Shown here piece by piece: positions 8,854-21,348 of a stretch of DNA of 21,924 nt. Source of the stretch: Candidatus Zixiibacteriota bacterium (GTDB lineage: Bacteria; SM23-81); contig DAOVRJ010000005.1 of the NCBI GenBank assembly GCA_030628225.1, forward strand, positions 1-21,924. The letters are read 5' to 3'. Position 1 is the stretch's first letter. Each line of letters begins with the position of its first letter. Below the pieces are notes generated by a model. It was not told the origin of the DNA and did not search any database. It worked only from the letters and a program-made list of their open reading frames with translations. The translations under genes were made by a program, and so were the position numbers.

Positions 8854-9204
8854 TCAGCCATCAGCCGCCACAGGCACCAGGCATAGGAAACGCAGGGGCT
8901 CATCGCCCACGTTTATGAACTGATGCTCCTTTTGGCCGGGGACAAAAACAGCCGATCCGGCCGACAATGACATCTTCCCCCAGGATCCACTCACAGATCC
9001 CTGACCGTCGAGGATGAAAACCTCGTGCTCGTGAGCATGGCGATGCAACGGCGTGTACCCTCCGGGCACCACCTCAAAAAGGCGCATGGCAAAGGTTGGA
9101 GCGTCGTCCTCTTTGCCGATCAGACGTCTGATGGAGACACCTTTGGCTCCCGGGATCTGCACAGTTGTCCGGGCGATCTTCTCGCTTTCCTTCACTTTGA
9201 TCAT
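8854..9204 (-). CDS. single-domain cupin protein
   Basis: This 116-residue soluble protein is one cupin barrel. Motif 1 is HRHAHEHEVFILDGQG, with His54, His56 and Glu61 as likely metal ligands. Motif 2 is GSAVFVPGQKEHQFIN, with His94. All four usual metal-binding positions are present, so it probably binds a divalent metal. The ATG at 9204 follows the thioesterase stop by 24 bases, making it the last gene of the catabolic operon. Cupins of this size are isomerases, dioxygenases or small-molecule sensors, and the fold alone does not choose. In this setting it may act on an opened-ring purine product or a ureido compound, but that is inference from location only. Bicupin ureidoglycine aminohydrolases are about twice as long, so it is not a direct match. 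Confidence 0.85.
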   Translation of the reverse strand: MIKVKESEKIARTTVQIPGAKGVSIRRLIGKEDDAPTFAMRLFEVVPGGYTPLHRHAHEHEVFILDGQGSVSGSWGKMSLSAGSAVFVPGQKEHQFINVGDEPLRFLCLVPVAADG

Positions 9205-9228: not shown

Positions 9229-9621
9229 TTAAATTTTCATCAATGTCCCCCGGGCATCGGCCAGCAGCGTCCCATCGGCCGATTGAACCTGGGCGTACAT
9301 ATCCAGTGTTCGGCGAGTCTCCCTGATCAGTTGAGCCGTGAAGATAAGCTCCTGCCCAACCAGCGCCGGTCTCTTGAAAGTCACCTGCATTCTGGCCGTG
9401 ACCACCTTCAGACCCAACCTATAGGGAAGCTTGACCATCACCTCATCCAGTATGGTGGCCAGAATGCCCCCGTGAACGACGTTGGCATAACCCTGATGTT
9501 CTTTGCCAGGCGTGAATTTCGTCTGCAGAGCCCCATCGTCCTTCAGTAAAAAATCCAGCTTCAAACCGATGGGATTTTGAGGACCACAGGCAAAGCACAT
9601 CCCGTCATCGTGAAATTCCAT
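9229..9621 (-). CDS. hotdog-fold thioesterase, PaaI/4HBT-like
   Basis: This 130-residue protein has the marks of PaaI-like acyl-CoA thioesterases. It opens with CFACGPQNPIGLKL, typical of a subgroup with an N-terminal Cys pair. HGGILATILDEVM follows at 50-62, where His50-Gly-Gly and Asp59 lie in the catalytic helix region. The ATG at 9621 is preceded by GGGGGAG at six bases. An alternative ATG at 9639 overlaps the xdhB stop as ATGA and would add six residues. It hydrolyses an acyl-CoA or acts as a related hotdog protein; the substrate is not evident. Tight spacing to xdhB and the cupin makes it part of the operon. I know of no thioesterase in the E. coli purine cluster, so its presence is unexplained. 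Confidence 0.82.
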   Translation of the reverse strand: MEFHDDGMCFACGPQNPIGLKLDFLLKDDGALQTKFTPGKEHQGYANVVHGGILATILDEVMVKLPYRLGLKVVTARMQVTFKRPALVGQELIFTAQLIRETRRTLDMYAQVQSADGTLLADARGTLMKI

Positions 9622-9635
9622 GGTTGCTCCCCCAG

Positions 9636-10502
9636 TCATCCGGCCATCCATTCTTCTCCCCAACACAGCAGAATCCTGGCCAGCAGAGCTTCCACCAGCT
9701 GACAGCGATACCAGGCCGATCCGCGCACGTCATCGATGGGCCGACACTGCTGCGCCACAGAGGCGGTTGCCTGGGCGATGAGATCCTCACCGAGAGCCTC
9801 TCCAGTCAATATTTCCTCCACCCTGGTGGCCCTGACCACCGTGGGACTCACAGATCCCAGGGCGATCCTGACCCGAGCGAAACGACCTTTCTCCTGAACA
9901 GCCGCCACGGCCACAGAGGCCACGGCGATGGACAGGGCCTGTCGAGAGCCAAATTTCTCATACTGAGAGCGAGAGCCAGGGGCTCTGTGGGGAAATCTCA
10001 CCCCGGTGATCAGCTCCTTCGGACGCAAGGCCGTCCGGGAGGGACCCTCCATGAGAGACTCAACCGGCAGCCAGTGAGAACCGTTCAGGGACCTGAGCTC
10101 AACCTCGGCCTCCAGAACTACCAGAGGGGGCACTGTATCGGCCGCCGGCGAGGCGTTGGCGATATTACCGCCGATGGTGCCCCGATGGCGGATCTGCGGA
10201 GAGCCCACCTTTGATGCCCCCTGCGCCAGGGCCAGCCCGTGCTCCCGGATCAGGGCAGAATGGGCCAGGTCCCAGTGAGTGGTCAGGGGGCCAATCCACA
10301 CGTATTTGCCCTCCATTCGTATTCCACGCAACTCATGGAGGCCAGCCACATCCAGCACCAGACCGGGCCGAAGTCCTCTCTCCTTCATCTGGACCAGCAG
10401 ATCTGTTCCACCGGCCAGGACCTTAACCCCCCCGGCCCCTTCGTCCAAAAGTTGCAGGGTCTCCTCCACAGATTCGGGAGCCAGGTAGCGGAAGACATCC
10501 AT
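9636..10502 (-). CDS. molybdenum hydroxylase FAD-binding subunit (XdhB/YgfM-like)
   Basis: This 288-residue protein is the flavin subunit of a xanthine-dehydrogenase-type enzyme. It passes electrons between the 2Fe-2S subunit and an external acceptor. LAGGTDLLVQMK near residues 29-40 and IRHRGTIGGNIANASPAAD near 105-125 are the two FAD-binding signatures, and the length is normal. The ATG at 10502 shares its A with the stop of the preceding short gene (TGATG), so the two are translationally coupled. An upstream GTG at 10505 in frame is possible. The 2Fe-2S subunit lies about 2.3 kb upstream, separated by the permease, a MocA-like gene and a gene remnant, an unusual split. No large molybdopterin subunit is in the window. 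CO dehydrogenase or nicotinate-dehydrogenase medium subunits look alike; the purine context favours xanthine or a related purine. Confidence 0.88.
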   Translation of the reverse strand: MDVFRYLAPESVEETLQLLDEGAGGVKVLAGGTDLLVQMKERGLRPGLVLDVAGLHELRGIRMEGKYVWIGPLTTHWDLAHSALIREHGLALAQGASKVGSPQIRHRGTIGGNIANASPAADTVPPLVVLEAEVELRSLNGSHWLPVESLMEGPSRTALRPKELITGVRFPHRAPGSRSQYEKFGSRQALSIAVASVAVAAVQEKGRFARVRIALGSVSPTVVRATRVEEILTGEALGEDLIAQATASVAQQCRPIDDVRGSAWYRCQLVEALLARILLCWGEEWMAG

Positions 10503-10756
10503 CACGTCAGCATCTCCATCTCGACGATTTTGGGCGGAACGGTCCCTATGCTGAGCAATTTTTGGTGAAATTCCCTGAGGTCGAATGCCTCTCCCCTCAG
10601 GGTCCGGTATTGATTTCGGATCTGCAAAATCTCCAGCTTGCCTATCAGGTGGTCGTAGGTGTGGATTCCCTGAAAGGTAGCATCCACGGGCCGGGCTTTA
10701 TGTTCCGACCGAAAGAACTCCTCGACAAAGCGGTCCAGCTCCTGTTCGGCGTTCAT
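10502..10756 (-). pseudogene. internally deleted DUF885 gene remnant (84 codons, in frame)
   Basis: The 84-residue product looks like two ends of a DUF885-family protein joined together. Residues 8-36 (FVEEFF, then RPVDATFQGIHTYDH) resemble the family's N-terminus. Residues 37-75 (LIGKLEILQIR, then FDLREFH) resemble its C-terminus. Full members are roughly 550-600 residues, so about 500 central residues, including any metal site, are missing without loss of frame. The junction lies near 10645-10655. The ATG at 10756 is my choice; a GTG at 10810 is also in frame. The stop overlaps the xdhB start, so ribosomes ending here may restart on xdhB, which could explain why the frame survives. It could instead be a real short protein. 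The family match is from memory of its motifs. Confidence 0.6.
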
Positions 10757-10814
10757 ATCTCTGTTTCCCACCTGGCTTTTTTGACTGTACAAAAATGTCT
10801 CGAAGACCACTTAT

Positions 10815-11429
10815 TCATGGGTCCCCGGCATCATGACCGGGATCTTCTTCCCCAAAGATTACCTCCCGGACATCCCCAGGCCTGTCTATGTCCGCCAACA
10901 CCCCCGGGACGGATACCTCTACCTCTAATACGTCTCCGGCATGGCCACGCAAAATATCCCGTCCCCCCACATCTCCTTTCAGCGCCCGAAGCTCCGGCCA
11001 GTATCTCCGGCCGATGATCACTGGATGGCCCCTTCGCCCACCATATGTGGGCACCACTATCTGATAATCTCCCCGGGAATACTCGCTTAAAAGCCGGTCG
11101 ATGACCTGCGCAGGAATGTAAGGCTGATCCCCCAGAGCAATGAGCACAGCTTGAGCACGGGGATGAACGGCGGATAGACCTCGACGTATGGAACTGCTCA
11201 TCCCCCGGGCATAGTCGGGGTTGACGATGATCTTGCAGCCCGTTCCCTTTAGGCTGGGGGCGACCGCCTGAGCCCCATGACCCAGAACCACCACTATTTC
11301 GTCCACCCGTGAGGCGCGCAGGTTGGCCAGGACGTGCTGCAGAATGGTCTTGTGGCCCAGCTTCACCAAGGGCTTGGGCCGACCCATTCTGCGGGAGGCT
11401 CCCGCTGCCAGAACCACAGCCGATATCAT
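10815..11429 (-). CDS. mocA: MocA/MobA-like molybdenum cofactor nucleotidyltransferase
   Basis: This 204-residue protein is a nucleotidyltransferase of the MobA/MocA type. LAAGASRRMGRPKPL at residues 7-21 is the nucleotide-binding signature. ALGDQPYI near residue 120 holds the metal-binding Asp, and the RGHPVI segment is also typical. MocA attaches CMP to molybdopterin to give the cofactor used by xanthine-dehydrogenase-family enzymes. The E. coli homologue YgfJ sits in the purine cluster next to ygfK, so the context fits. The ATG at 11429 starts one base after the permease stop. It probably matures the hydroxylase whose 2Fe-2S and FAD subunits flank it. MobA (GMP transfer) is less likely because the operon's enzyme is of the MCD-using family. 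CTP versus GTP use is inferred. Confidence 0.85.
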   Translation of the reverse strand: MISAVVLAAGASRRMGRPKPLVKLGHKTILQHVLANLRASRVDEIVVVLGHGAQAVAPSLKGTGCKIIVNPDYARGMSSSIRRGLSAVHPRAQAVLIALGDQPYIPAQVIDRLLSEYSRGDYQIVVPTYGGRRGHPVIIGRRYWPELRALKGDVGGRDILRGHAGDVLEVEVSVPGVLADIDRPGDVREVIFGEEDPGHDAGDP

Positions 11430-11430
11430 C

Positions 11431-12735
11431 TCACGTATATGGGTAGAAGATGAAGAATAACAGCGACAGGATTCCCAGGATCCACATGCCCGGGTGCACC
11501 TCCCGGGTTCGCCCGGAGACGATCTTGAAGAAAGGATACAGCACGAAACCGGCGGTCATACCCACCCCGATATTGAAGGTGAAGCTCATCAGCACCACCG
11601 TCATGAAGGCCGGGATCAGCTCGGTGTAGTCATCGAACTTGATACGAGTGATGGGGCTGAGCATCAACAGACCGACCATGATGAGGGCTGGGCCGTAAGC
11701 CATAGCAGGAACGGCTGTGAAAAAGGGCGTGAAGAACAGAGCCAGCAGAAATAGAAGAGCCGTGACCACCGCCGTCAGGCCTGTTCTGCCTCCCTCCTCT
11801 ATGCCGGTGGCCGACTCGATGTAGGTCCCGGTGGTGGTAGTGCCCAGCAGGGCACCGAGAACAGTGGCCAGGGCATCGGCCAGCATGGGTTTCTCCACCT
11901 CCGGAAGGTTCCCCTCCTCATCCAGGAATCCGGCTCTGGCCGAGACGCCGATGAGCGTGCCCATGGTGTCCACGAAATCCATGACGAAGACGGTGAGGAT
12001 GATGGAGAAAAATCCCCAGGTGAGGGCACCCAGGATGTCCAGCTTGAGGAAGATGGGTCCCAGGCTGGGGGGCATGCTCACCAGACTGGCGGGCGCCTTG
12101 GCCACGCCTAAAATGAAGGCCAACACGGTGGTGACCACCATGCTCAACAGCAGCGCACCCTTGACCCGCTTGACCATCATCACGCCCATGAGCAGGAAAC
12201 AAAATATGGCCAGCAGTACTGGCGTGCTGGTGATCTGTCCGATCCTCACTGGAGCACCCAGTGAGCCCAGAGTTACCAGACCTGTCTCGTTGAGGCCGAT
12301 GAAGGCCAGAAAGAGGCCGATGCCCGCGGCGAAGCTGAACTTCAATCCCTGGGGAATCGAGTTGGCCAGCCAGGACCGCAGACGAAAGATGGTCAGCAGG
12401 GTGAACAGGACTCCCCCGATAAAGATGGCCCCCAGGGCCGTCTGCCAGCTGTAGCCCAGGATCTTCACCACGGTGAAGGCCACAAAAGCGTTCTCTCCCA
12501 TATACGGTGCGATGGCGAAGGGCCGATTGGCGTAAAACCCCATGATCAACGTGCCAAAGGCGGCTGACAGGATGGTAGCCACCATGGAGGGACCCCGGGG
12601 AATACCGGCCGCCTCCAGGATGGCGGGGTTGACGACGATGATGTAGGCCATGGTGATGAATGTGGTAAGGCCGCCGAGGACCTCCCTTTTCACGGTGGTG
12701 CCATGCTCTTGTAACCCGAAAAGTTTCCCGGACAT
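11431..12735 (-). CDS. purine permease, AzgA/PbuG (NCS2) family
   Basis: This 434-residue inner-membrane protein has about a dozen hydrophobic segments. It carries sequences typical of adenine/guanine/hypoxanthine permeases: FITMAYIIVVNPAIL near the start, PYMGENAF in helix 3, DTMGTLIGVSARAGFLDEEG, and TGTYIESATGIEEGGRTGL. Such carriers import a purine base with protons. I chose the ATG at 12735 because GGGAGGTG lies just upstream. An in-frame GTG at 12768 would add 11 residues and overlap xdhC. In E. coli the purine region also encodes permeases of this group (GhxQ) and of the xanthine/urate group. The AzgA-type sequence suggests hypoxanthine, guanine or adenine as substrate rather than urate. 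It is embedded between the 2Fe-2S subunit and mocA, so uptake is made with the ring-oxidising enzyme. Confidence 0.92.
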   Translation of the reverse strand: MSGKLFGLQEHGTTVKREVLGGLTTFITMAYIIVVNPAILEAAGIPRGPSMVATILSAAFGTLIMGFYANRPFAIAPYMGENAFVAFTVVKILGYSWQTALGAIFIGGVLFTLLTIFRLRSWLANSIPQGLKFSFAAGIGLFLAFIGLNETGLVTLGSLGAPVRIGQITSTPVLLAIFCFLLMGVMMVKRVKGALLLSMVVTTVLAFILGVAKAPASLVSMPPSLGPIFLKLDILGALTWGFFSIILTVFVMDFVDTMGTLIGVSARAGFLDEEGNLPEVEKPMLADALATVLGALLGTTTTGTYIESATGIEEGGRTGLTAVVTALLFLLALFFTPFFTAVPAMAYGPALIMVGLLMLSPITRIKFDDYTELIPAFMTVVLMSFTFNIGVGMTAGFVLYPFFKIVSGRTREVHPGMWILGILSLLFFIFYPYT

Positions 12736-12764
12736 GCCCACCTCCCTGTTTGAAGGATAGCCTG

Positions 12765-13256
12765 TCACTTACGCGGTTTGTTCCCTTCACCGGCCCGCCG
12801 AATAGCCCTGAGGATGGCCGAGTAGCCGGTACAGCGGCAGAGGTGGCCGGAGATGGCCTCTTTGATCTGGCCCTCATCTGGGTGAGGAAGGCGATCCAGC
12901 AGGGCTCTGGCCGAGAGAACCATCCCCGGAGTGCAGAAACCACACTGTACCGCTCCCTCATCGATGAAGGCCTGCTGGACTGGGTCCAGCTCCCCGTCCT
13001 GCTCCAGCCCCTCGATGGTCACGATCCGGTGACCCTGGGCCTGGACGGCCAGGATCAGGCAGGAGTTGACCGGCTGGCCATCCATCAATACCGTGCAGGC
13101 TCCGCACTGCCCTTTGCCACACCCTTCCTTGGTGCCCGTTAAACCAAGATGGTCCCGAATTAGCTGCAGAAGGGTGGTCTGGGGCGCCACCACCACCCGG
13201 TATGGTCGATCGTTGACCACCAGCTGGACGATCAATTCCGGCGAGTCTTCTTTCAC
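12765..13256 (-). CDS. molybdenum hydroxylase 2Fe-2S subunit (XdhC-like)
   Basis: This 163-residue protein is the small iron-sulfur subunit of a xanthine-dehydrogenase-type enzyme. The plant-type ferredoxin cluster uses Cys46, Cys51, Cys54 and Cys66 (EGCGKGQCGACTV, then NSC). The second cluster uses Cys105, Cys108, Cys140 and Cys142 (QCGFCTPGM and HLCRCTGY). All eight ligands are present. It relays electrons from the molybdenum centre to the FAD subunit. The start is a GTG at 13256 overlapping the stop of the threonine-synthase-like gene as GTGA, so translation is coupled. The FAD subunit is further downstream in the same operon and the molybdenum subunit is not seen. XdhC here follows the E. 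coli name for the 2Fe-2S subunit; in other bacteria that name is used for a maturation factor. Confidence 0.93.
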   Translation of the reverse strand: MKEDSPELIVQLVVNDRPYRVVVAPQTTLLQLIRDHLGLTGTKEGCGKGQCGACTVLMDGQPVNSCLILAVQAQGHRIVTIEGLEQDGELDPVQQAFIDEGAVQCGFCTPGMVLSARALLDRLPHPDEGQIKEAISGHLCRCTGYSAILRAIRRAGEGNKPRK

Positions 13257-14491
13257 TTCGCCCTCCGAATCTCGCGGACCACCGCTGCCATCGTCGGCTC
13301 TATATGGGTGGGCTGCGCAGCAGCCTTCAGCGCGGCCTGCACATCTTTGAGGCCACTGCCGGTAATCACTACCACCACTCGCTCATCCACCCCCACCCTA
13401 TCCTGGGAAAGGGCCTTGAGCAAACCGGCGAATCCGGTCACCCCCGCCGGTTCCCCGAAAACTCCGGTTTTTCGGGCCAGAATGCCCATGGCCTCTAGGA
13501 TCTGCCCATCGTCGACGGCCACCATGAAACCTCTGGAATCCCGCACGGCCCTCAGGGCCTTCAGGGCATCACGGGGATGGCCCACGGCTATGCTGTCGGC
13601 TATGGTCCGCGGAAGAACCGTCTGCACTGGCTGGCCCGTTTCAAAAGCTCGCCTGATAGGCTGACAGCCCTCTGCCTGGACTCCCACCAATCGGGGCATC
13701 TTGTCTATAAATCCCAGCTGCAGGAGGTCGTGAAAACCCTTCCACAATCCCCCGATGATACAGCCATCCCCCACCGAGACGAAAACTGTGTCCGGAGCCC
13801 TCCACCCTAATTGCTCGCAGATCTCCAGGGCAGCCGTCTTCTTTCCCTCGGAAAGATAGGGGTTATAGGCGGTGTTGCGGCTGTACCAGCCGAACTGGCT
13901 GCTCGCTTCCAGGCACAGGTCAAAGGCCTGATCATAGGTGCCTTGAACCAAAAAAACTTGCGCCCCGTAAGTCAGCAGCTGAGCCACCTTAGCTTGGGGG
14001 GCATTATGGGGAACGAAGATGATACTGCGCAACCCAACGCTGGCGCTGATGCCGGCCAGAGAGGAGGCAGCATTTCCCGTGGATGCGCAGGTGATGACCT
14101 GATGGCCCAGTTCCATGGCCTTGGCCACGCCGACGGCGCTGGCCCGGTCCTTGAAAGATGCGGTGGGATTGCGGCCATCATCCTTGAAGTACAGATGGGG
14201 GCAGCCCAATTCCTGGCCCAACTTCTCGGCCTTGTACAGGGGAGTCCAGCCCACCTTCAGGGGCGGGCGGGGAGCCTGGCGAAGCACCGGCAGCAGGTCC
14301 AGATAGCGCCAGATAGACATGTCCCGGTTGGCCGAGAGCCGCTCCTTGGTCAATCGCCGGGCGATGAGCGGGTAATCGTAGACCACATCCAGTATTCCCT
14401 CCACCCCACAGGAGGGGCAGACATACAAAACCTTCCGCGGATCGTGATCTTTCCCGCAAATCATGCAGCGCAAACAGGATACTTGATCCAT
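13253..14491 (-). CDS. threonine-synthase-like PLP enzyme with N-terminal zinc ribbon
   Basis: This 412-residue protein is a fold-type II PLP enzyme related to threonine synthase. Cys9, Cys12, Cys25 and Cys28 (CMIC and CPSC) form a zinc-ribbon start common in this subgroup. NPTASFKDRA holds the PLP lysine, Lys114. CASTGNAASS near 135-144 and NPYLSEGKKT near 200 are family motifs. The phosphate loop reads GDGCIIGG where threonine synthases usually have a GN-rich sequence, so the substrate may differ. Threonine synthesis makes little sense between carbamate kinase and a hydroxylase subunit. A catabolic lyase for a diamino or hydroxy amino acid, in place of YgeX diaminopropionate ammonia-lyase, is my inference. 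The ATG at 14491 has GAGGAGG only two bases before it, an unusually short spacing, but no better start exists nearby. Confidence 0.82.
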   Translation of the reverse strand: MDQVSCLRCMICGKDHDPRKVLYVCPSCGVEGILDVVYDYPLIARRLTKERLSANRDMSIWRYLDLLPVLRQAPRPPLKVGWTPLYKAEKLGQELGCPHLYFKDDGRNPTASFKDRASAVGVAKAMELGHQVITCASTGNAASSLAGISASVGLRSIIFVPHNAPQAKVAQLLTYGAQVFLVQGTYDQAFDLCLEASSQFGWYSRNTAYNPYLSEGKKTAALEICEQLGWRAPDTVFVSVGDGCIIGGLWKGFHDLLQLGFIDKMPRLVGVQAEGCQPIRRAFETGQPVQTVLPRTIADSIAVGHPRDALKALRAVRDSRGFMVAVDDGQILEAMGILARKTGVFGEPAGVTGFAGLLKALSQDRVGVDERVVVVITGSGLKDVQAALKAAAQPTHIEPTMAAVVREIRRAK

Positions 14492-14512: not shown

Positions 14513-15457
14513 TCAGCGGGCCGTGATCCTGGTTCCAGCCTTTCCCCTGATGGCCTCCACTATCCGCTCCGGTGAGGTAATAATCACCTGACCACCGCCC
14601 TTCTGGAGAAACTGAATGGCGGCCTTGATCTTGGGCTCCATGCTTCCCGGAGCGAATTGATCCTCTTTCAAAAATGCCTCGGCCTCCCGGATGGTCATGT
14701 GGGAAATGATTTTCTGGTCGGGCCGGCCGAAATTCACATATACATGATCCACGGAGGTGGAGATGAGCAATAACTCTGCTCCTATTGCGGCGCCCAGAAG
14801 GCTGGAGGCATAATCTTTGTCGATGACCGCCGCCGCCCCGGTCAAGCGCCCCTGCTCATCCCGGACCACAGGTATGCCCCCTCCCCCAACGGAAACAACA
14901 ACATACCCTTTTTGTATCAAAGTGTTAATGCTCTCTATCTCAACTATTTCCTGAGGTGCCGGGGATGCTACGACCCGCCGGTATCCCCGCCCGGCATCCT
15001 CGATCATCTCCCACCCCTCTTCCCGTTGACACCTCAGAGCTTTCTCCTTGTCGTAGAAGGGTCCGATGGGCTTACTGGGATGCTGAAAGGCAGGATCATC
15101 GGCATCCACTACCACCTGGGTAACCACGGTGACCACCTGCTTGTCTATCCCCCGGGTTCGAAACTCATTGCCCAGAGCCCTCTGGATATGATAGCCAATG
15201 GCTCCCTGGGTGTCGGCGCCGCAGGAGTCCAGGGGCACCGCATGCAACACGTGGCAGGACAACTCAACCCGCCGCAGGATGAAGCCCACCTGCGGTCCAT
15301 TGCCATGGGTGATGACCACCTCATACCCGGCCTCCACCATGCCAGCGATATGGGAGCAAGTTTTAGCCACCGCCTGGTACTGATCGGGAACGGTCTGGTG
15401 ATCTTTATCCTTAATCAGAGAGTTGCCGCCTATGGCCACCACGGCGATTTTTGACAT
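14513..15457 (-). CDS. arcC: carbamate kinase
   Basis: This 314-residue enzyme makes ATP from carbamoyl phosphate and ADP, releasing carbamate that breaks down to ammonia and CO2. AIGGNSL at 8-14 and THGNGPQVG near 50-58 are the opening signatures of the family. VSVGGGGIPVV, the DKDYASSLLGAAIGAELLL stretch and the C-terminal FAPGSMEPKI are also conserved. The length is typical. The ATG at 15457 starts three bases after the preceding stop and has GGGGGAG upstream. Two carbamoyltransferase genes lie directly upstream, and in E. coli yqeA sits in the same type of cluster with ygeW. It is therefore the energy-yielding last step for carbamoyl groups released from ureido compounds. Arginine deiminase is absent here, which argues against an arc operon. 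Confidence 0.95.
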   Translation of the reverse strand: MSKIAVVAIGGNSLIKDKDHQTVPDQYQAVAKTCSHIAGMVEAGYEVVITHGNGPQVGFILRRVELSCHVLHAVPLDSCGADTQGAIGYHIQRALGNEFRTRGIDKQVVTVVTQVVVDADDPAFQHPSKPIGPFYDKEKALRCQREEGWEMIEDAGRGYRRVVASPAPQEIVEIESINTLIQKGYVVVSVGGGGIPVVRDEQGRLTGAAAVIDKDYASSLLGAAIGAELLLISTSVDHVYVNFGRPDQKIISHMTIREAEAFLKEDQFAPGSMEPKIKAAIQFLQKGGGQVIITSPERIVEAIRGKAGTRITAR

Positions 15458-15460
15458 ATC

Positions 15461-16480
15461 TCACTCCCCCATGGTCTGGGCCATGACAGCCTTCTGCACG
15501 TGAAGGCGATTTTCGGCCACGTCGTAAATGATGGACCGGGGACCGCTGGCCACACCATCGCTCACCTCGTGACCTCGGTCCACAGGCATAGGGTGAATAA
15601 ACAGGGCGTCGTTGGTCAGATCCATGCGAGATTCATCGCAAATCCAATCACGATACTGCATGGCTTTTTCGATCTCTTCCTGCCTGTTAAGACCACCCTG
15701 GTAGGCCACCGGACTCATCCAGTTGCGTGAGTAGACCACGTCGGCCCCCTCGTATCCAGCCCGGCTGTCGTTGAGAATCTCGAACGTGGACCCGGCGGCA
15801 GTGCAGTTGGCTCTCACCTGGTCCATGACCTGCGGATCCAGATCATATCCCCGGGGATACGCCACGGTGATGTCCATGCCCAGGCGGGAGTTGATCAACA
15901 GGCTCTCCTGCACCGAGCACCAGGCCCGGGCCAGGGCACCGTGACCCCAGATCTGCAGCAGCTTCTTCCCCTTTAGGCTATCGGTGTCAAAAGCCTCCCG
16001 CATGCCCATCACGTCGGCCAAGCCCTGGCAGGGATGGAATTTGTCGTCGGCCATGTTGATCACCGGGATGGAGGCCTGCTCCGCGTACTGGCGAATGAGC
16101 TCATCCCCGTCTCCGTAAGCCTCGATCTTACCCTCCAGAATGCGAATGCCCATGCCGCAGGCATAGCGGCTCATCACCCTGGCAGCATCCTCGATGGTCT
16201 CGCCGGCGCTGCTCTTGGTCCTCAGGCGCATCCCCCCCGGCTCCAGAAACTGAGCGTGGCCACCCAACTCCGTGGCGGCCGCCTCAAAGGACTGACGGGT
16301 ACGCACCGAGGGGTTGTAGAAAAACATCAGAAAGGTCCTGTGCCTCAGCAGCGAAGTATACTGGTCCGAAAACCGACTGGCCTTCATCTGTCGGGCCAGT
16401 TTGAGGACCTGCTCCAACTCCTCCAAGCTCCAATCCTGAGTGCAGATGAGATCTTTTCCGTAGAGTTCTGATTTTGCCAT
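15461..16480 (-). CDS. YgeW-like carbamoyltransferase, HPMP-motif paralogue
   Basis: This 339-residue cytoplasmic enzyme belongs to the aspartate/ornithine carbamoyltransferase family. Carbamoyl-phosphate contacts are SVRTR (58-62) and HPCQ (149-152). The second-substrate loop reads HPMPVDRG (296-303) and so resembles the aspartate-type HPxP more than the ornithine-type HCLP. The loop from Trp178 to Gly201 is a few residues longer than in ordinary ornithine enzymes. That agrees with the knotted branch (YgeW, acetyl- and succinylornithine enzymes) but lacks its usual prolines. The C-terminal AENRLHVQKAVMA is nearly identical to that of the upstream paralogue. The ATG at 16480 has GAGGGGAAAT before it, 15 bases after that paralogue. 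In this operon it most likely runs toward carbamoyl phosphate. The amino-acid substrate is unknown. Confidence 0.88.
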   Translation of the reverse strand: MAKSELYGKDLICTQDWSLEELEQVLKLARQMKASRFSDQYTSLLRHRTFLMFFYNPSVRTRQSFEAAATELGGHAQFLEPGGMRLRTKSSAGETIEDAARVMSRYACGMGIRILEGKIEAYGDGDELIRQYAEQASIPVINMADDKFHPCQGLADVMGMREAFDTDSLKGKKLLQIWGHGALARAWCSVQESLLINSRLGMDITVAYPRGYDLDPQVMDQVRANCTAAGSTFEILNDSRAGYEGADVVYSRNWMSPVAYQGGLNRQEEIEKAMQYRDWICDESRMDLTNDALFIHPMPVDRGHEVSDGVASGPRSIIYDVAENRLHVQKAVMAQTMGE

Positions 16481-16495
16481 ATTTCCCCTCGTCTC

Positions 16496-17539
16496 CTATC
16501 TCATGGTCAGGGCCATAACCGCCTTTTGAACGTGCAAGCGGTTCTCCGCCTCGTCGAAGACCACCGACCGGGGGCCATCGATGACCTCGTCGGTGACCTC
16601 AAAACCCCGGTCACAGGGCAGACAGTGCATGTAGACGGCTCCCGGCTTGCACAGATCCATTTTAACCTGATTGCAGATCCAATCTTTGTGCTCGTTGAAC
16701 AACCTCTCCGTCTTCTCCATCTCCAGCCTGGCCGAATTTGGCGGGATGTTCTCCAGACTGGTCCAGGATTTTGGATAGACCACATCGGCGCCGCGAAAAG
16801 CCTCCTGCATATCGTTGGATATCTGGAAAGAACCACCGGAATTCTCCGCATTGACCTGGCAGGCTTTGATCACCTCGGGGTCCAGCTCCAGCCCTTTGGG
16901 GTGGGCCAGGACCACCTCCATGCCCATCTTGGTGGCACCGATGATGGCACTCTGCGGCACGCTCAGAGGCTTCTCCACGCTGGGCGAGTAAGCCCAACTC
17001 ATCACGAACCGCCGGCCGGCAAACCCGCCCAGCTTCTCCTTAACGGTCAGCAGATCTGCCAGAGCCTGACAGGGGTGGTATTTATCGCACTCCATGTTTA
17101 TGATGGGAATATCTGCCCAGCGGGCGAACTCGTTGACGATCTCGTTGGCTTTCCCATAAACCCATCCAACGGGATTCCCGTACATTCTGATGGCGATGGC
17201 GTGACCCATGCGAGATAAAGTACGGGCCACGTCCGATACCCTCTCTGTGGAGTAGGCCTGCTCGTCCCCCTTCAGCGCCGGTGTATAAATCTTACCGGGG
17301 GACAGGAAGTGGGCATGGCCGCCCAGCTGGGTCATGCCAGCCTCGAAGCTGTTGCGGGTACGCAACGACTGATTGTAAAAGATCATGAACAGACTCTTAT
17401 CGGAGAGCAGATGATGGGACTCGCCGGTGACGAACTTGCGCTTCAAATCCAGGGCTATGTCCAAGAGGGTATCGATCTCCTCCCGTGAGTAGTTCAGGAG
17501 GGTGATGTAGTCCCTTCCGCGGAAGGTGTTGGTTTTCAT
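16496..17539 (-). CDS. YgeW-like knotted carbamoyltransferase
   Basis: This 347-residue enzyme carries SLRTR (58-62), HPCQ (155-158) and HCLPCDRG (305-312), the complete carbamoyltransferase signature. The segment WAYSPSVEKPLSVPQ at 182-196 matches the proline-rich knot loop of E. coli YgeW (WAYSPSYGKPLSVPQ as I recall it), so the assignment to the knotted catabolic branch is good. YPKSW at 255-259 is also shared. YgeW is thought to run in the degradative direction, giving carbamoyl phosphate from a ureido compound. The ATG at 17539 has a perfect AAGGAGGTAA eight bases upstream, stronger than its neighbours. The 111-base gap before it holds a small hairpin, so it may be expressed at a different level from the genes upstream. 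The diverged paralogue follows at once. Confidence 0.9.
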   Translation of the reverse strand: MKTNTFRGRDYITLLNYSREEIDTLLDIALDLKRKFVTGESHHLLSDKSLFMIFYNQSLRTRNSFEAGMTQLGGHAHFLSPGKIYTPALKGDEQAYSTERVSDVARTLSRMGHAIAIRMYGNPVGWVYGKANEIVNEFARWADIPIINMECDKYHPCQALADLLTVKEKLGGFAGRRFVMSWAYSPSVEKPLSVPQSAIIGATKMGMEVVLAHPKGLELDPEVIKACQVNAENSGGSFQISNDMQEAFRGADVVYPKSWTSLENIPPNSARLEMEKTERLFNEHKDWICNQVKMDLCKPGAVYMHCLPCDRGFEVTDEVIDGPRSVVFDEAENRLHVQKAVMALTMR

Positions 17540-17650: not shown

Positions 17651-18697
17651 TCACTCGATGATCTCCCACCCGCTCTGATATTCATCCAGCTGATCAATAG
17701 TATATTGGTCCATGGGGTGGTCTCGCTCGGGGATCTCCACTTCCTTGGGCTCCCCGCAGAGCTCCGTGGAGAAATATCGCTGCCCCGTGTCGTTTATCAT
17801 GGTAACGATGTTCTTCAACTCCGGGTGCCTCGCGGCCAGCTTGATAGCGGCGACCACATTGCTCCCCGAGGAAATACCGCAGAAGACCCCCTCCTCCAGA
17901 GCCAGCCGCTGTCCCATCTGGATGGCCTTCCGGGAAGTGGTGGTGATGATCCCATCCAGGAGACTCAGATCCAGGTTGAAGGGCACAAATCCATCCCCGA
18001 TCCCCTCGATCTTGTGCGACCCCCACTCCCTCCTGGAGAGCATGGGCGCCTCGGTGGGCTCAACGGCGAAAAGCTTCACCCGGGCATTCTGCTCCCGAAG
18101 ATAGCGGCCCACGCCAGTGATGGTCCCGCCGGTCCCCTGGGTGGCTACGAAGGCGTCCACCTGTCCCCCTGTCTGCTCCCAGATCTCCGGACCGGTAGTT
18201 TTATAATGGGCTCCGATGTTGTCGGCATTGCCGTACTGGTCCGGTTCCCAGTACTTGCCCGGATTGGCTACCTTGATCTCGGCTGTCTTGGCAATACACA
18301 GGTCCACGTCCGACTCAGCTCCAGGCGTGAAGATGATATCTGCCCCGTAGGCCCGCATGATCTTCATCCGCTCCTCGCTCATCCCATCGGGCATCACAAT
18401 GGTCACCTTGTAACCCAGCATCTTGCCCACAAAGGAACAGGCGATGCCGGCATTGCCGGTAGAGGTCTCGATAATCTCCATGCCCGGCTTCAGGTCGCCC
18501 TTCTCGATAGCCTGGGTGATCATCTCGTAGAAGATGCGGTCTTTCAGGCTGCCAGTGGGGCTGAACCACTCGATCTTCCCCAGAATATGAGACTCAAGTC
18601 CCTGGGTGACTTTGTTGAAGCGCAGCAGCGGCGTTCTGCCGATGGCTTCGAACATATTGTTAGCGATGTTCTTATTGGCATCCCACTTTACTTCCAT
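17651..18697 (-). CDS. cysteine-synthase-like PLP enzyme (CysK/CBS family)
   Basis: This 348-residue fold-type II PLP enzyme has Lys52 in PTGSLKDRIF as the Schiff-base lysine. TQGTGGTITGVGRYL (186-200) is the phosphate-binding loop, and SSGSN (276-280) contacts the pyridine ring. QYGNADNIGAHYKTTGPEIW is also strongly family-like. The substrate loop, TSGNTG in cysteine synthases, reads STGNAG (79-84). That replaces the Thr that helps hold the substrate carboxylate, so O-acetylserine may not be the substrate. The ATG at 18697 has AAGGAGAG upstream and follows ssnA by 17 bases. It occupies the kind of position that ygeX (diaminopropionate ammonia-lyase, same fold) has in E. coli. I therefore infer a beta-elimination or replacement on a purine-derived amino acid. 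True cysteine or cystathionine synthesis remains possible. Confidence 0.85.
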   Translation of the reverse strand: MEVKWDANKNIANNMFEAIGRTPLLRFNKVTQGLESHILGKIEWFSPTGSLKDRIFYEMITQAIEKGDLKPGMEIIETSTGNAGIACSFVGKMLGYKVTIVMPDGMSEERMKIMRAYGADIIFTPGAESDVDLCIAKTAEIKVANPGKYWEPDQYGNADNIGAHYKTTGPEIWEQTGGQVDAFVATQGTGGTITGVGRYLREQNARVKLFAVEPTEAPMLSRREWGSHKIEGIGDGFVPFNLDLSLLDGIITTTSRKAIQMGQRLALEEGVFCGISSGSNVVAAIKLAARHPELKNIVTMINDTGQRYFSTELCGEPKEVEIPERDHPMDQYTIDQLDEYQSGWEIIE

Positions 18698-18714
18698 AAA
18701 GTTCTCTCCTTCCC

Positions 18715-20061
18715 TTAAAATCTTTCCCATAATTTTCCGGCCAGCTCTCGGGCCCGTGCAGCCACATCTTCCTCGTTCAAGCACAATAACTGGCCATCTC
18801 GCATGAGTATCTTTCCATTCACAATGGTGGTCTGCACCCGGGCTCCGCCGATGCCAAAGAGCAGATGTCCCAGAAAAGTTTCCGACCGCAACGGTGTGGG
18901 CGGGAAATAGTCCAAGAAAATCAGGTCGGCGGCTGCACCGGGCCGTATGATCCCCAGGGAACTGTTGAAAAATAACGCTGCAATCTCCCTGTTGTTCTGA
19001 AAAGCCATCTGCTGCACCTCGGCATAGCCCACCCGGGGATCCCGGTGAGATAGCTTGTGCAGAATGTTGGCCGTCCTGATCTCGTCGAACATATTGGCGG
19101 TAAAACCATCGGAGCCCAACCCCACACGCACTCCCTGCCCCATCATCTCTAAAACCGGGGCCACACCTACCCCGTTGTTGCAGTTAGACTGGGGATTGTG
19201 CACCACATTGGCGCCCATCTTTCGGAGAATCTCCATGTCATCATCGTCCACATGCACACAGTGAATGGCCAGAGTCTGCGGCCCCAGAACATCTATGTCG
19301 GCCAGGCGTTGCACCGTCGACTTACCATATTTCTGTTGCGCATCCCGGACATCGGCGGCGTCCTCGGCCACATGGAGGTGAAAACCCACACCTAAATCCC
19401 CGGCCAGCTTAACGCATTGCTTGAGGGTCTTATCTGAGAGAGTAAAGGAGGCGTGCAGCCCAAAGCTGGCCGCCAACATGGGATTCTTCTCTGCCTGACA
19501 TCTGCGAATGAATCGGCAATTCTCGCCAATGCCGGCCTCGGCCTCTTGCGGACCGCCCCGGTCGGAGACCTCGTAGCACAGACAGCCGCGCAGACCGGTC
19601 TGCTCCATGGCATCGGCGATGAGATCCAGGCTGCCCGGTATGTTCCCCGGGCTGGCGTGATGATCGATGATGGTTGTGGTACCGTGCCGTATGCATGAAA
19701 TAAGTGCCACCAGGGCGCTGTAGAAAATATCATCCTCGTCGAGAGCCCTGTCCAGACGCCACCACAACCGCTCCAATATCTGCACGAAGTTGGCCGGTGG
19801 CTCGTCCTTCAGGGCCATCCCCCGGGCCAGAGTGCTGTACAGATGCATGTGGGCGTTGATCAAACCAGGCATGACCAACTGACCCCCGGCATCCAGGATC
19901 TGCTCCGTCGGGTGGCGTCCAATGAGCTTCTGGGTGGGCCCTACCTCGACGATGAGGCCGTCTCTGATGAGCAGGGCCCCGTCCGGGATGATCTGGCCGG
20001 ATTCATCCAGGGTTACCAGGCTGGCATGGGTAATCAACAACTGCTTCGCTAGTTCTTTCAT
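18715..20061 (-). CDS. ssnA: SsnA-like amidohydrolase / aminohydrolase
   Basis: This 448-residue metal-dependent hydrolase of the amidohydrolase superfamily has HMH (His71, His73), HLHVAE (His228, His230, Glu233), His267 in AIHCVH, and GSDG with Asp318. These are the metal and catalytic residues of deaminase-type members. LWWRLDRALDE (99-109) and IDHHASP (132-138) match the E. coli SsnA signature as I remember it, as does the length. The start is the ATG at 20061 with GAGG five bases upstream; longer frames to 20178 lack support and overlap preA. It follows the PreA-like gene by 20 bases. In E. coli ssnA lies beside ygfK, the same pairing. It probably deaminates or hydrolyses a purine-derived ring; guanine deaminase and methylthioadenosine deaminase are related alternatives. 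Confidence 0.9.
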   Translation of the reverse strand: MKELAKQLLITHASLVTLDESGQIIPDGALLIRDGLIVEVGPTQKLIGRHPTEQILDAGGQLVMPGLINAHMHLYSTLARGMALKDEPPANFVQILERLWWRLDRALDEDDIFYSALVALISCIRHGTTTIIDHHASPGNIPGSLDLIADAMEQTGLRGCLCYEVSDRGGPQEAEAGIGENCRFIRRCQAEKNPMLAASFGLHASFTLSDKTLKQCVKLAGDLGVGFHLHVAEDAADVRDAQQKYGKSTVQRLADIDVLGPQTLAIHCVHVDDDDMEILRKMGANVVHNPQSNCNNGVGVAPVLEMMGQGVRVGLGSDGFTANMFDEIRTANILHKLSHRDPRVGYAEVQQMAFQNNREIAALFFNSSLGIIRPGAAADLIFLDYFPPTPLRSETFLGHLLFGIGGARVQTTIVNGKILMRDGQLLCLNEEDVAARARELAGKLWERF

Positions 20062-20081: not shown

Positions 20082-21311
20082 TTATCCGGACTTCCCATTG
20101 TCTGTGGCCAGCACTTCCTCCATGTACAGACAGCCGGGCACAGGACAAACGGCCAGGCAGAGACCGCACCCCACGCATTTCTCCTCATCCATCTGGGGCA
20201 ACCTATTCTCGTCCAACTCAATAGCCTGATGCCCCCCGTCGCGGCAGGCCAGGTAGCAGAGGTCGTCCTTGACGCACAGCTCGGAGCGTATCCGGCTGAT
20301 CACCTTTTTCTCTCGGGAAAGATCGCCGTGGCCGGTGATGAAGGGCAGCGACTTTCCCACCAGTTCCTCCGCTGACCGCATCCCCTTGTGCCGCAGATAG
20401 CGCTCCAGACCATCTTTGAGATCTTCGATAATTCGAAAACCATAATGCATGGGGGCAGTGCAGAACTGGACCGTGCGTGCGCCCACCAGCATGAACTCCG
20501 CGGCATCCCGCCAGTCGGCGGCCCCGCCCGTTCCGGTAATGGAAATCTGAACACTCCGGGAGATCTCGGCGATGACCCGCAGGGTAATCGGCTTTATGGC
20601 CGGACCGGACAGACCGCTGTATGTGGATTTGCCCGCCACCTGGGGGTAGGGCACGAAGGTCTCCAGATCCAGACCCATGAGGGCCGGGATGGTGTTGGAG
20701 GCGCAGATACCGTCGGCTCCCCCATCTCTGGCGGCCTGGGCCACCTCCACGATATCGGCCACCTGGGGGGTGATCTTAATCACCACCGGTGTTGAGCCCG
20801 CCCCCTCCTTCACCCAGGCGGTCACCTCTCGGACCAGCCCGGGATCCTGACCCAGCATAAAACCTGGCTTAGCACCCAGGGTCCCCTGCGGACAGGAGAA
20901 ACTGCACTCGATGATATCAGCCCCGGCAGCGCTGAGCCGACGGGCCACCCCAATCCAGTCCTCCTTGGTAGCCGCCATCATGCTGGTCACCACCACCTTC
21001 TGGGGAAATTCTTCCTTCAGAGCGCGGACCCGCTCCTCGATCTCATCGACATGGTGCTGGGATATTAGGTCGATGTTGCCCAACCCAAAAACCCTCCTGC
21101 CCTCATGTTCCAGACCCACGATCATGGGATAAGCCAGGTCTACAGTAGTTTCCTCCACGGATGTCGTTTTTAGCACTGCTCCGGCCCATCCGGCCTGAAA
21201 AGCCCTGCGGACCATCTCCAGATCATCGGTACATGGAGAAGCAGCCAGGATGAAAGGGCTGTCGAAGACGAGACCACAAAAACTGGTGCTGAGATCAGCG
21301 GGTTGTGACAT
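20082..21311 (-). CDS. PreA-like / dihydropyrimidine-dehydrogenase-type flavin and Fe-S subunit
   Basis: This 409-residue protein has an FMN barrel like dihydroorotate and dihydropyrimidine dehydrogenases, then a C-terminal ferredoxin domain. Recalled pig/human DPD positions map well: Asn609 to Asn79 (GNIDLIS), Cys671 to Cys140 (FSCPQG), Lys709 to Lys179, and Asn736-Thr737 to Asn206-Thr207. Substrate-binding Asn668 is Ser137 here, so the pocket differs. The ferredoxin part has Cys379, Cys382, Cys385 and Cys356 for one cluster. The other has Cys346, Asp349, Cys352 and Cys389, with Asp replacing one Cys. The start ATG at 21311 has GAGGGA upstream. The GltD-like partner ends 37 bases before it, giving a PreT-PreA type pair; E. 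coli YgfK combines related parts in one chain. The substrate is probably a purine-derived ring rather than uracil. Confidence 0.85.
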   Translation of the reverse strand: MSQPADLSTSFCGLVFDSPFILAASPCTDDLEMVRRAFQAGWAGAVLKTTSVEETTVDLAYPMIVGLEHEGRRVFGLGNIDLISQHHVDEIEERVRALKEEFPQKVVVTSMMAATKEDWIGVARRLSAAGADIIECSFSCPQGTLGAKPGFMLGQDPGLVREVTAWVKEGAGSTPVVIKITPQVADIVEVAQAARDGGADGICASNTIPALMGLDLETFVPYPQVAGKSTYSGLSGPAIKPITLRVIAEISRSVQISITGTGGAADWRDAAEFMLVGARTVQFCTAPMHYGFRIIEDLKDGLERYLRHKGMRSAEELVGKSLPFITGHGDLSREKKVISRIRSELCVKDDLCYLACRDGGHQAIELDENRLPQMDEEKCVGCGLCLAVCPVPGCLYMEEVLATDNGKSG

Positions 21312-21348
21312 GGAAAATTCCCTCTGTCGGCGCCCGAAGACGCATGAG

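Follow-up and report, generated by a model that had tools for sequence, protein, structure and literature searches.

How does an operon of the purine-degradation type make use of two different carbamoyltransferases beside a single carbamate kinase? The question is raised by the window analyzed here, which is the whole of contig C219 (DAOVRJ010000005.1; 21,924 nt) of a Candidatus Zixiibacteriota bacterium (genome G000; 2.34 Mb, 306 contigs, 92% complete). Two carbamoyltransferase genes, here termed CT1 and CT2, and a carbamate kinase gene form three open reading frames on the minus strand with intact carbamoyl-phosphate (CP) motifs, as the initial annotation had described (Table 1). They are transcribed in the order CT1, CT2, kinase with gaps of 15 and 3 nt, and CT1 and CT2 are 39% identical. 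Based on pocket residues and gene context, we consider it fairly probable that each transferase phosphorolyses one of the two ureido groups of 2,3-diureidopropionate (DUPA), in two steps.

DUPA is an intermediate of the published reductive pathway for urate. XdhD converts urate into 2,8-dioxopurine, which YgfK or UacX dearomatizes, and ring opening with SsnA and HyuA leads to DUPA; YgeW phosphorolyses one ureido group of DUPA, YgeY hydrolyses the other, and YgeX gives rise to pyruvate (Li et al., 2025; PMC12507026). The diureido three-carbon acid that had been proposed for this locus is thus a published compound (PMC12507026, PMC12990295), and the enzymes that produce it, HyuA among them, are linked to CT1 and CT2 in this genome and its relatives, as described below. 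According to a commentary, two groups differ on which ureido group leaves first, and both this order and the nature of the intermediate are named as open (PMC12990295).

CT1 has all the motifs of the transcarbamylase superfamily (SLRT, HPCQ, HCLP, and the CP-binding Arg), together with YPKSW and the Pro-rich loop SPSVEKPLSVPQ. CT2 has all of the superfamily motifs (SVRT, HPCQ, and the Arg) except HxLP, in place of which HPMP is found in 38 of 39 sequences; it also has YSRNW and a GHGALAR loop, and lacks the prolines of the Pro-rich loop. None of the families listed in PMC4016543 shows the combination SVRT/HPCQ/HPMP. Both transferases, like every relative examined, keep SxRT, HPxQ, and the CP-binding Arg, and the residues of the CP site (Ser71, Arg73, Thr74, Arg122, His165, and Gln168 in the YgeW numbering of PMC4581275, Table 1) do not vary among the CT1 and CT2 sequences. 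At the second-substrate positions of YgeW (Q98, D124, Q160, S200, K203, and K270, with C330), CT1 has Y, Y, E, S, K, K, and C (Y85/Y120/E150/S187/K190/K257/C306), which keeps three of the six YgeW residues, and CT2 has R, L, A, A, R, R, and P (R85/L115/A144/A182/R185/R252/P297), which keeps none. Each pocket residue is constant in all sequences or in all but one or two (for CT2, in 39 of 39 or 38 of 39). Because each pocket is frozen and yet the two are unlike each other, they argue for two different substrates rather than for isozymes or a dead subunit. An assignment of HCLP and HPMP to side-chain and α-nitrogen specificity, respectively, was dropped, as these side chains make no direct substrate contact in the reviewed structures (PMC4581275).

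It is also conceivable that CT1 and CT2 are subunits of one heteromeric carbamoyltransferase that performs a single YgeW-type step, an option that the initial annotation had left open. The active sites of transcarbamylases lie at subunit interfaces, where the 80s loop of the neighboring subunit supplies a residue (PMC4581275), and the two genes are adjacent in 28 of the 41 genomes that contain both. In the other 13, however, they are separated by more than 1.6 kb or placed on two contigs, and several genomes have CT2 but no CT1; moreover, the CP site is complete in each subunit, neither of which looks like a pseudo-subunit, and equal subunit numbers are impossible in a single trimer. A heteromer is therefore disfavored, and we regard it as quite unlikely.

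The description of both transferases as YgeW-like needs a correction, as neither reaches the cut-off of the YgeW model TIGR03316 (500 bits; CT1 173, CT2 118). CT1 is a sister family of YgeW, and CT2 forms a deep clade of its own within this group. Both (347 and 339 aa) are shorter than YgeW (~396 aa) at the two ends, where YgeW has extra helices, and in the 240s loop, which is extended in YgeW. In a tree of 129 sequences, CT1 (support 99) and CT2 (support 100) form separate clades that fall with N-acetylornithine carbamoyltransferase (AOTCase) and YgeW in one group (support 100), set apart from ornithine and aspartate carbamoyltransferases (OTCase and ATCase). CT1 is sister (support 91) to YgeW together with short single transferases, most of which share a contig with an SsnA-like gene; a small divergent group, CT1b (L046, L047, L054), lies outside the CT1 clade. 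The YgeW-type gene context, with a carbamate kinase nearby in a urate-type operon, is present in the window and in relatives. Among the matches listed in a plasmid search for a characterized close relative, none exceeded 43% identity. Four loci (L012, L013, L014, and L015, in G028, G054, G053, and G016, respectively) encode single transferases of ~325–331 aa, with SsnA or a similar gene on the same contig at a distance of a few kb; in the tree these are closest to YgeW, although they do not have its extra length, and are possible bridging forms.

A further alternative is that CT1 and CT2 are misannotated enzymes of arginine pathways, such as OTCases or AOTCases of the anabolic or arginine-deiminase type. 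CT1 scores 294 bits with the AOTCase model NF003384, just over its cut-off of 288 (CT2, 249, is under it), and AOTCase is the best structural match of both AlphaFold models (predicted local distance difference test, 95.5 for CT1 and 94.1 for CT2), with Z 45.7, root-mean-square deviation 1.6, and 324 aligned residues for CT1 and Z 44.2, 1.9, and 323 for CT2; the YgeW-type structure 2yfk gives Z 42.2 and 40.2, respectively. A third, OTC-like gene lies downstream in some loci (see below). Nevertheless, OTCase DxxxSMG and ATCase RxQxER are absent from both proteins, in which the corresponding loop reads YPKSWTS (CT1) or YSRNWMS (CT2), and Trp77 in the 80s loop of AOTCase and its carbamylated Lys302 are replaced by Thr86 and Glu314 in CT1 and by Leu86 and Glu305 in CT2 (the aligned AOTCase is the K302E mutant 3m5c, the Glu of which marks position 302). 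G000 encodes an OTCase and an ATCase of its own, both anabolic, that cluster in the tree with ArgI and PyrB of E. coli, so that neither CT1 nor CT2 is the cell's only such enzyme, and no arginine gene was recognized in the operon. An arginine-pathway function is thus very improbable.

The operon was correctly recognized as purine-type, as it encodes SsnA, UacX, Xdh subunits, and a permease of the NCS2 family, and it extends beyond the window. HyuA, an XdhA-type subunit, and the N-terminal part of a PreT-like protein are encoded on contig C97 of G000; this part covers residues 1–211 of the sister-genus protein at 70% identity, and the right end of the window matches residues 254–443 of that protein. 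The sister genus has HyuA-XdhA-PreT-UacX-SsnA-CysK-like-CT1-CT2 on a single strand of a single contig (G001:C5). Given this order and the complementary PreT-like pieces, C97 and the window very probably adjoin, with ~125 nt lacking between them. The resulting two-contig operon comprises HyuA, the XdhA-type subunit, the PreT-like protein, UacX, SsnA, two pyridoxal-phosphate (PLP) enzymes, CT1, CT2, and the kinase. It is of the reductive, anaerobic uric acid degradation type, the pathway of which was published in 2025; the window and C97 together contain SsnA, HyuA, Xdh-type subunits, and a reductase of the YgfK or UacX kind.

In the proposed route, HyuA would open a ureidomethyl-hydantoin to DUPA, one transferase would move the carbamoyl group from the first ureido nitrogen onto phosphate, and the other would do the same with the remaining mono-ureido acid. 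The single carbamate kinase would convert both carbamoyl phosphates into two ATP, and the PLP enzymes would cleave 2,3-diaminopropionate into pyruvate and ammonia. CT1, the pocket of which keeps part of the YgeW set, would do the job of YgeW or a close relative of it, and CT2, with its different pocket, would take the other ureido position, at which E. coli YgeY hydrolyses the group without ATP. The YgeW-like pocket suggests CT1 at the YgeW step; the phyletic pattern, in which CT1 is present when YgeY is missing, could equally suggest CT1 at the YgeY step. We infer the substrates, the order, and the regiochemistry of CT1 and CT2 in this route, as well as the role of the PLP enzymes.

Table 1. 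Genes of the window and of the OTC-like third transferases at related loci.
Feature	Position	Strand	Length, matches, and remarks
CT1, carbamoyltransferase, YgeW sister clade	16496-17539	-	347 aa; Pfam OTCace_N + OTCace
CT2, carbamoyltransferase of distinct clade	15461-16480	-	339 aa; Pfam OTCace_N/OTCace
Carbamate kinase (ArcC/YqeA type)	14513-15457	-	314 aa; TIGR00746 390 bits (cut-off 358); NF009007 419 (cut-off 266)
CysK-like fold-type II PLP enzyme	17651-18700	-	TIGR01136 351 bits (cut-off 344); candidate 2,3-diaminopropionate lyase
SsnA aminohydrolase, reductive urate degradation marker	18715-20040	-	TIGR03314 562 bits (cut-off 455.5); NF005540 589 (cut-off 444)
UacX/PreA-like flavin mononucleotide + 2x[4Fe-4S] reductase	20082-21320	-	NF006183 456 bits; E. 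coli PreA alignment
PreT-like flavin adenine dinucleotide (FAD) reductase, C-terminal part, cut by contig end	21349-21924	-	73% identity to residues 254-443 of the sister-genus protein
ThrC-like fold-type II PLP enzyme, frequent module neighbor	13253-14491	-	NF006050 321 bits (cut-off 303); second candidate diaminopropionate lyase
Xanthine dehydrogenase-type [2Fe-2S] subunit	12765-13256	-	NF043084 197 bits, below cut-off 217
NCS2 xanthine/uracil-family permease	11431-12768	-	Pfam Xan_ur_permease 133 bits
MocA-like molybdenum cofactor cytidylyltransferase	10815-11429	-	Read from translation only
Xanthine dehydrogenase-type FAD subunit (XdhB)	9636-10505	-	NF043083 220 bits, below cut-off 310
OTC-like third gene	L045:14806-15729		
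OTC-like third gene	L046:13425-14354		
OTC-like third gene	L055:11442-12386		
OTC-like third gene	L057:13639-14574		
OTC-like third gene	L076:9603-10547		
OTC-like third gene	L084:12030-12944		
OTC-like third gene	L104:13195-14094		
OTC-like third gene	L117:13458-14363		
OTC-like third gene	L203:11903-12808		

The pairing is not confined to this genome. In a survey that was seeded from CT2, and is biased in its sampling accordingly, CT2 is found with at least 60% identity at no fewer than 80 loci, spread over some 18 phylum-level groups that include Chloroflexota, Elusimicrobia, Eisenbacteria, Caldisericota, Auribacterota, WOR-3, Hydrothermota, Myxococcota-type bacteria, Spirochaetes, and Acidobacteria; the named loci are from metagenome-assembled genomes (MAGs). 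CT2 is also present in MAGs of Heimdall-, Hod-, and Thorarchaeota (L078, L083, L087, L096, L103, L109, L111, L120), and the Asgard genome G086 has HyuA, CT2, kinase, CT1, a ThrC-like gene, and an SsnA-like gene inside ~20 kb, which suggests that Asgard carriers of CT2 may break down urate or purines. Both paralogs occur in 41 of 54 CT2-containing genomes. CT1-CT2-kinase recurs as a unit in many phyla, often with the ThrC-like gene behind it, and the arrangement is therefore not a chance one. The recurrent neighbors at CT2 loci that carry no label are regulators, transporters, and unrelated genes.

SsnA, the marker of reductive urate degradation, co-occurs with CT2. It is found over the cut-off in 40 of the 54 CT2-containing genomes (49 if matches of 350–451 bits are counted) and in 3 of 56 genomes of relatives without CT2 (Fisher test, 1.6e-14), a control that is phylogenetically rough, kinship being uncorrected beyond the breadth of the groups. 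The SsnA-positive genomes belong to 12 of the 18 named groups, and SsnA or HyuA lies within 20 kb of CT1 or CT2 in 21 of the 54 genomes. A phylum-matched set around G021 consists of two genomes only, both with CT1, CT2, and SsnA, and is thus uninformative as a control. We give a slightly better than even chance to the wider proposal of a widespread pathway variant, present in many uncultured bacterial phyla and in Asgard archaea, in which two dedicated transferases free both ureido groups of DUPA as carbamoyl phosphate, CT2 with its HPMP/YSRNW/GHGALAR pocket represents a new substrate class, and the ATP of this stage is doubled.

The fate of the second ureido group bears directly on this proposal. 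G000 has no match to the YgeY model TIGR03526, and its sole Pfam M20 match is an M42-type aminopeptidase. UacY, a D-aminoacylase, was not recognized among the PF07969 matches of G000, which were compared without a UacY reference sequence; the strongest of these matches is a 523-aa amidohydrolase that fits no curated family well, and the next is cytosine deaminase-like. YgeY is over the cut-off in 29 of the 54 CT2-containing genomes; among the other 25, any match above 150 bits is lacking in 18. CT1 is present in 17 of these 18 (Fisher p = 0.04; a weak test, picked after the data were seen). The earlier proposal of two specialized decarbamoylases thus gains partial support at the level of sequence, from two conserved and distinct pockets and from the absence of YgeY in G000 and in other genomes with CT1. 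Nearly every CT2-containing genome has at least one further candidate enzyme for the other ureido group. CT2 as a plain replacement of YgeY was rejected as too simple, as several CT2-containing genomes keep YgeY and have no CT1.

Besides the roughness of the SsnA control, several points weigh against a two-step phosphorolysis of DUPA. The phosphorolysis of ureido acids is thermodynamically unfavorable and has to be pulled by the kinase twice over. YgeY stands beside CT1-CT2 in some operons, where it would be partly redundant, and a canonical YgeW over the TIGR03316 cut-off is also found in six CT2-containing genomes. CT2 occurs without CT1, CT1b, or YgeW in seven genomes, of which three have YgeY, three a weaker M20 protein, and one neither. 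Five CT2-containing genomes have no SsnA-like match above 190 bits, perhaps through incompleteness; all or nearly all of the genomes are MAGs, so that absences are soft.

Alternatively, CT2 (or CT1) may serve another ureido acid, such as N-carbamoyl-β-alanine, formed in the reductive breakdown of pyrimidines, or an N-carbamoyl amino acid derived from other hydantoins; only one transferase would then act on DUPA, and an unrecognized hydrolase would take the second group. UacX and PreT resemble the dihydropyrimidine dehydrogenase PreTA (NF006183, 456 bits), HyuA is an enzyme of the D-hydantoinase/dihydropyrimidinase type, and a catabolic β-alanine transcarbamylase has been postulated (PMC4581275). 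In several loci, CT2 stands with carbamate kinase alone and purine genes are not nearby, and in other genomes it accompanies a full YgeW plus YgeY. Against this, CT2 co-occurs with SsnA genome-wide, CT1 and CT2 are inside the urate operon itself in the window and in the sister genus, and neither YgeY nor a recognizable UacY was found in G000. The reductase is a further counterpoint, as UacX in the window and its closest SsnA-linked relatives read IECSFSCP at the motif that is IECNFSCP in E. coli PreA, whereas NFSCP is retained by a second PreA-like protein, encoded in the G092 cluster with HyuA. The Asn of this motif contacts uracil in dihydropyrimidine dehydrogenase. This change favors a purine substrate for the operon reductase; it does not settle the substrate of CT2. 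Overall, we consider a different ureido acid a minor but real possibility.

If both ureido groups of DUPA are removed by CT1 and CT2, a lyase for 2,3-diaminopropionate would be expected. The CysK-like gene has the same operon position in the sister genus, and its relatives with 69–71% identity have SsnA and CT1 as neighbors in G070 and SsnA in G103; the ThrC-like gene follows the kinase in many loci. The ThrC-like protein reaches 66 bits, against a cut-off of 276, with the model for diaminopropionate ammonia-lyase, for which the CysK-like protein is not listed, and by model score YgeX is not among the PLP enzymes of the window, the rest of the genome not having been searched for it. The CysK-like and ThrC-like proteins stand in the place expected for YgeX; one could be the diaminopropionate lyase, and the other might act on the other enantiomer.

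Several neighboring features deserve mention. Proteins of ~850 aa are encoded adjacent to SsnA at L210:3557-6112 (G092) and L204:10452-13001 (G021); that of G021 fuses a GltD/YgfK-like FAD domain to a PreA-like one and represents, after YgfK and the split PreT + UacX, a third architecture. In nine loci, a third, OTC-like carbamoyltransferase gene follows the CT2-kinase(-ThrC) genes (Table 1). These third genes fall in three separate places among OTCases in the tree (the L203 copy left out), as if an OTC had been put beside the module more than once; such an enzyme might pass carbamoyl phosphate on to citrulline. Within the window, a 102-aa open reading frame (10502-10810, minus strand) between the MocA-like and XdhB-like genes matches only positions 449–532 of the 532 positions of DUF885 and is probably what remains of a larger gene. 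Two further genes on this strand follow the XdhB-like gene (8854-9204 and 9229-9666); they encode a small cupin and a thioesterase-like protein, neither with a known link to the pathway. The window contains no RNA families or tRNAs.

The closest known system is YgeW, YqeA, and YgeY of E. coli, in which a transcarbamylase gene also lies by a carbamate kinase gene in a urate operon with SsnA and HyuA (PMC12507026); CT1 keeps the equivalents of YgeW K270, K203, S200, and C330 and the Pro-rich loop. E. coli, however, combines one YgeW with hydrolysis by YgeY, whereas two transferases and no YgeY are found here. AOTCase and N-succinylornithine transcarbamylase (SOTCase) are anabolic arginine enzymes; AOTCase shares the subgroup in the tree and is the nearest solved structure, and CT1 has Glu and Lys at the positions of E144 and K252, where CT2 has Ala and Arg, with HPMP instead of HCLP. 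The ureidoglycine carbamoyltransferase (UGTCase) of Rubrobacter is likewise a carbamoyltransferase of purine catabolism that was inferred from gene context, and there supported by assay, but it is a single transferase of the ATCase branch that acts on ureidoglycine (PMC4016543). L-2,3-diaminopropionate transcarbamylase (DPTCase) of zwittermicin and viomycin clusters, cited in PMC4581275, converts diaminopropionate into 3-ureidoalanine in biosynthesis, the reverse of the reaction proposed here, and belongs to the unknotted OTCase branch, with HDLP where CT1 has HCLP and CT2 HPMP. We found no description of paired carbamoyltransferases in urate degradation in the open-access literature and, judged against that literature, the system is a variant of a known pathway that is new in pairing two carbamoyltransferases.

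If this proposal is correct, each purine would yield two ATP by substrate-level phosphorylation rather than the one thought to be gained in E. coli, a difference that matters to energy-limited anaerobes. One transferase per ureido group would also make the cleavage order directly testable, as each enzyme should show one substrate. The proposal would further assign a function to two transcarbamylase clades that are matched best, among curated families, by ornithine or acetylornithine carbamoyltransferase, and would suggest the use of urate or purines in many uncultured lineages, Asgard archaea included.

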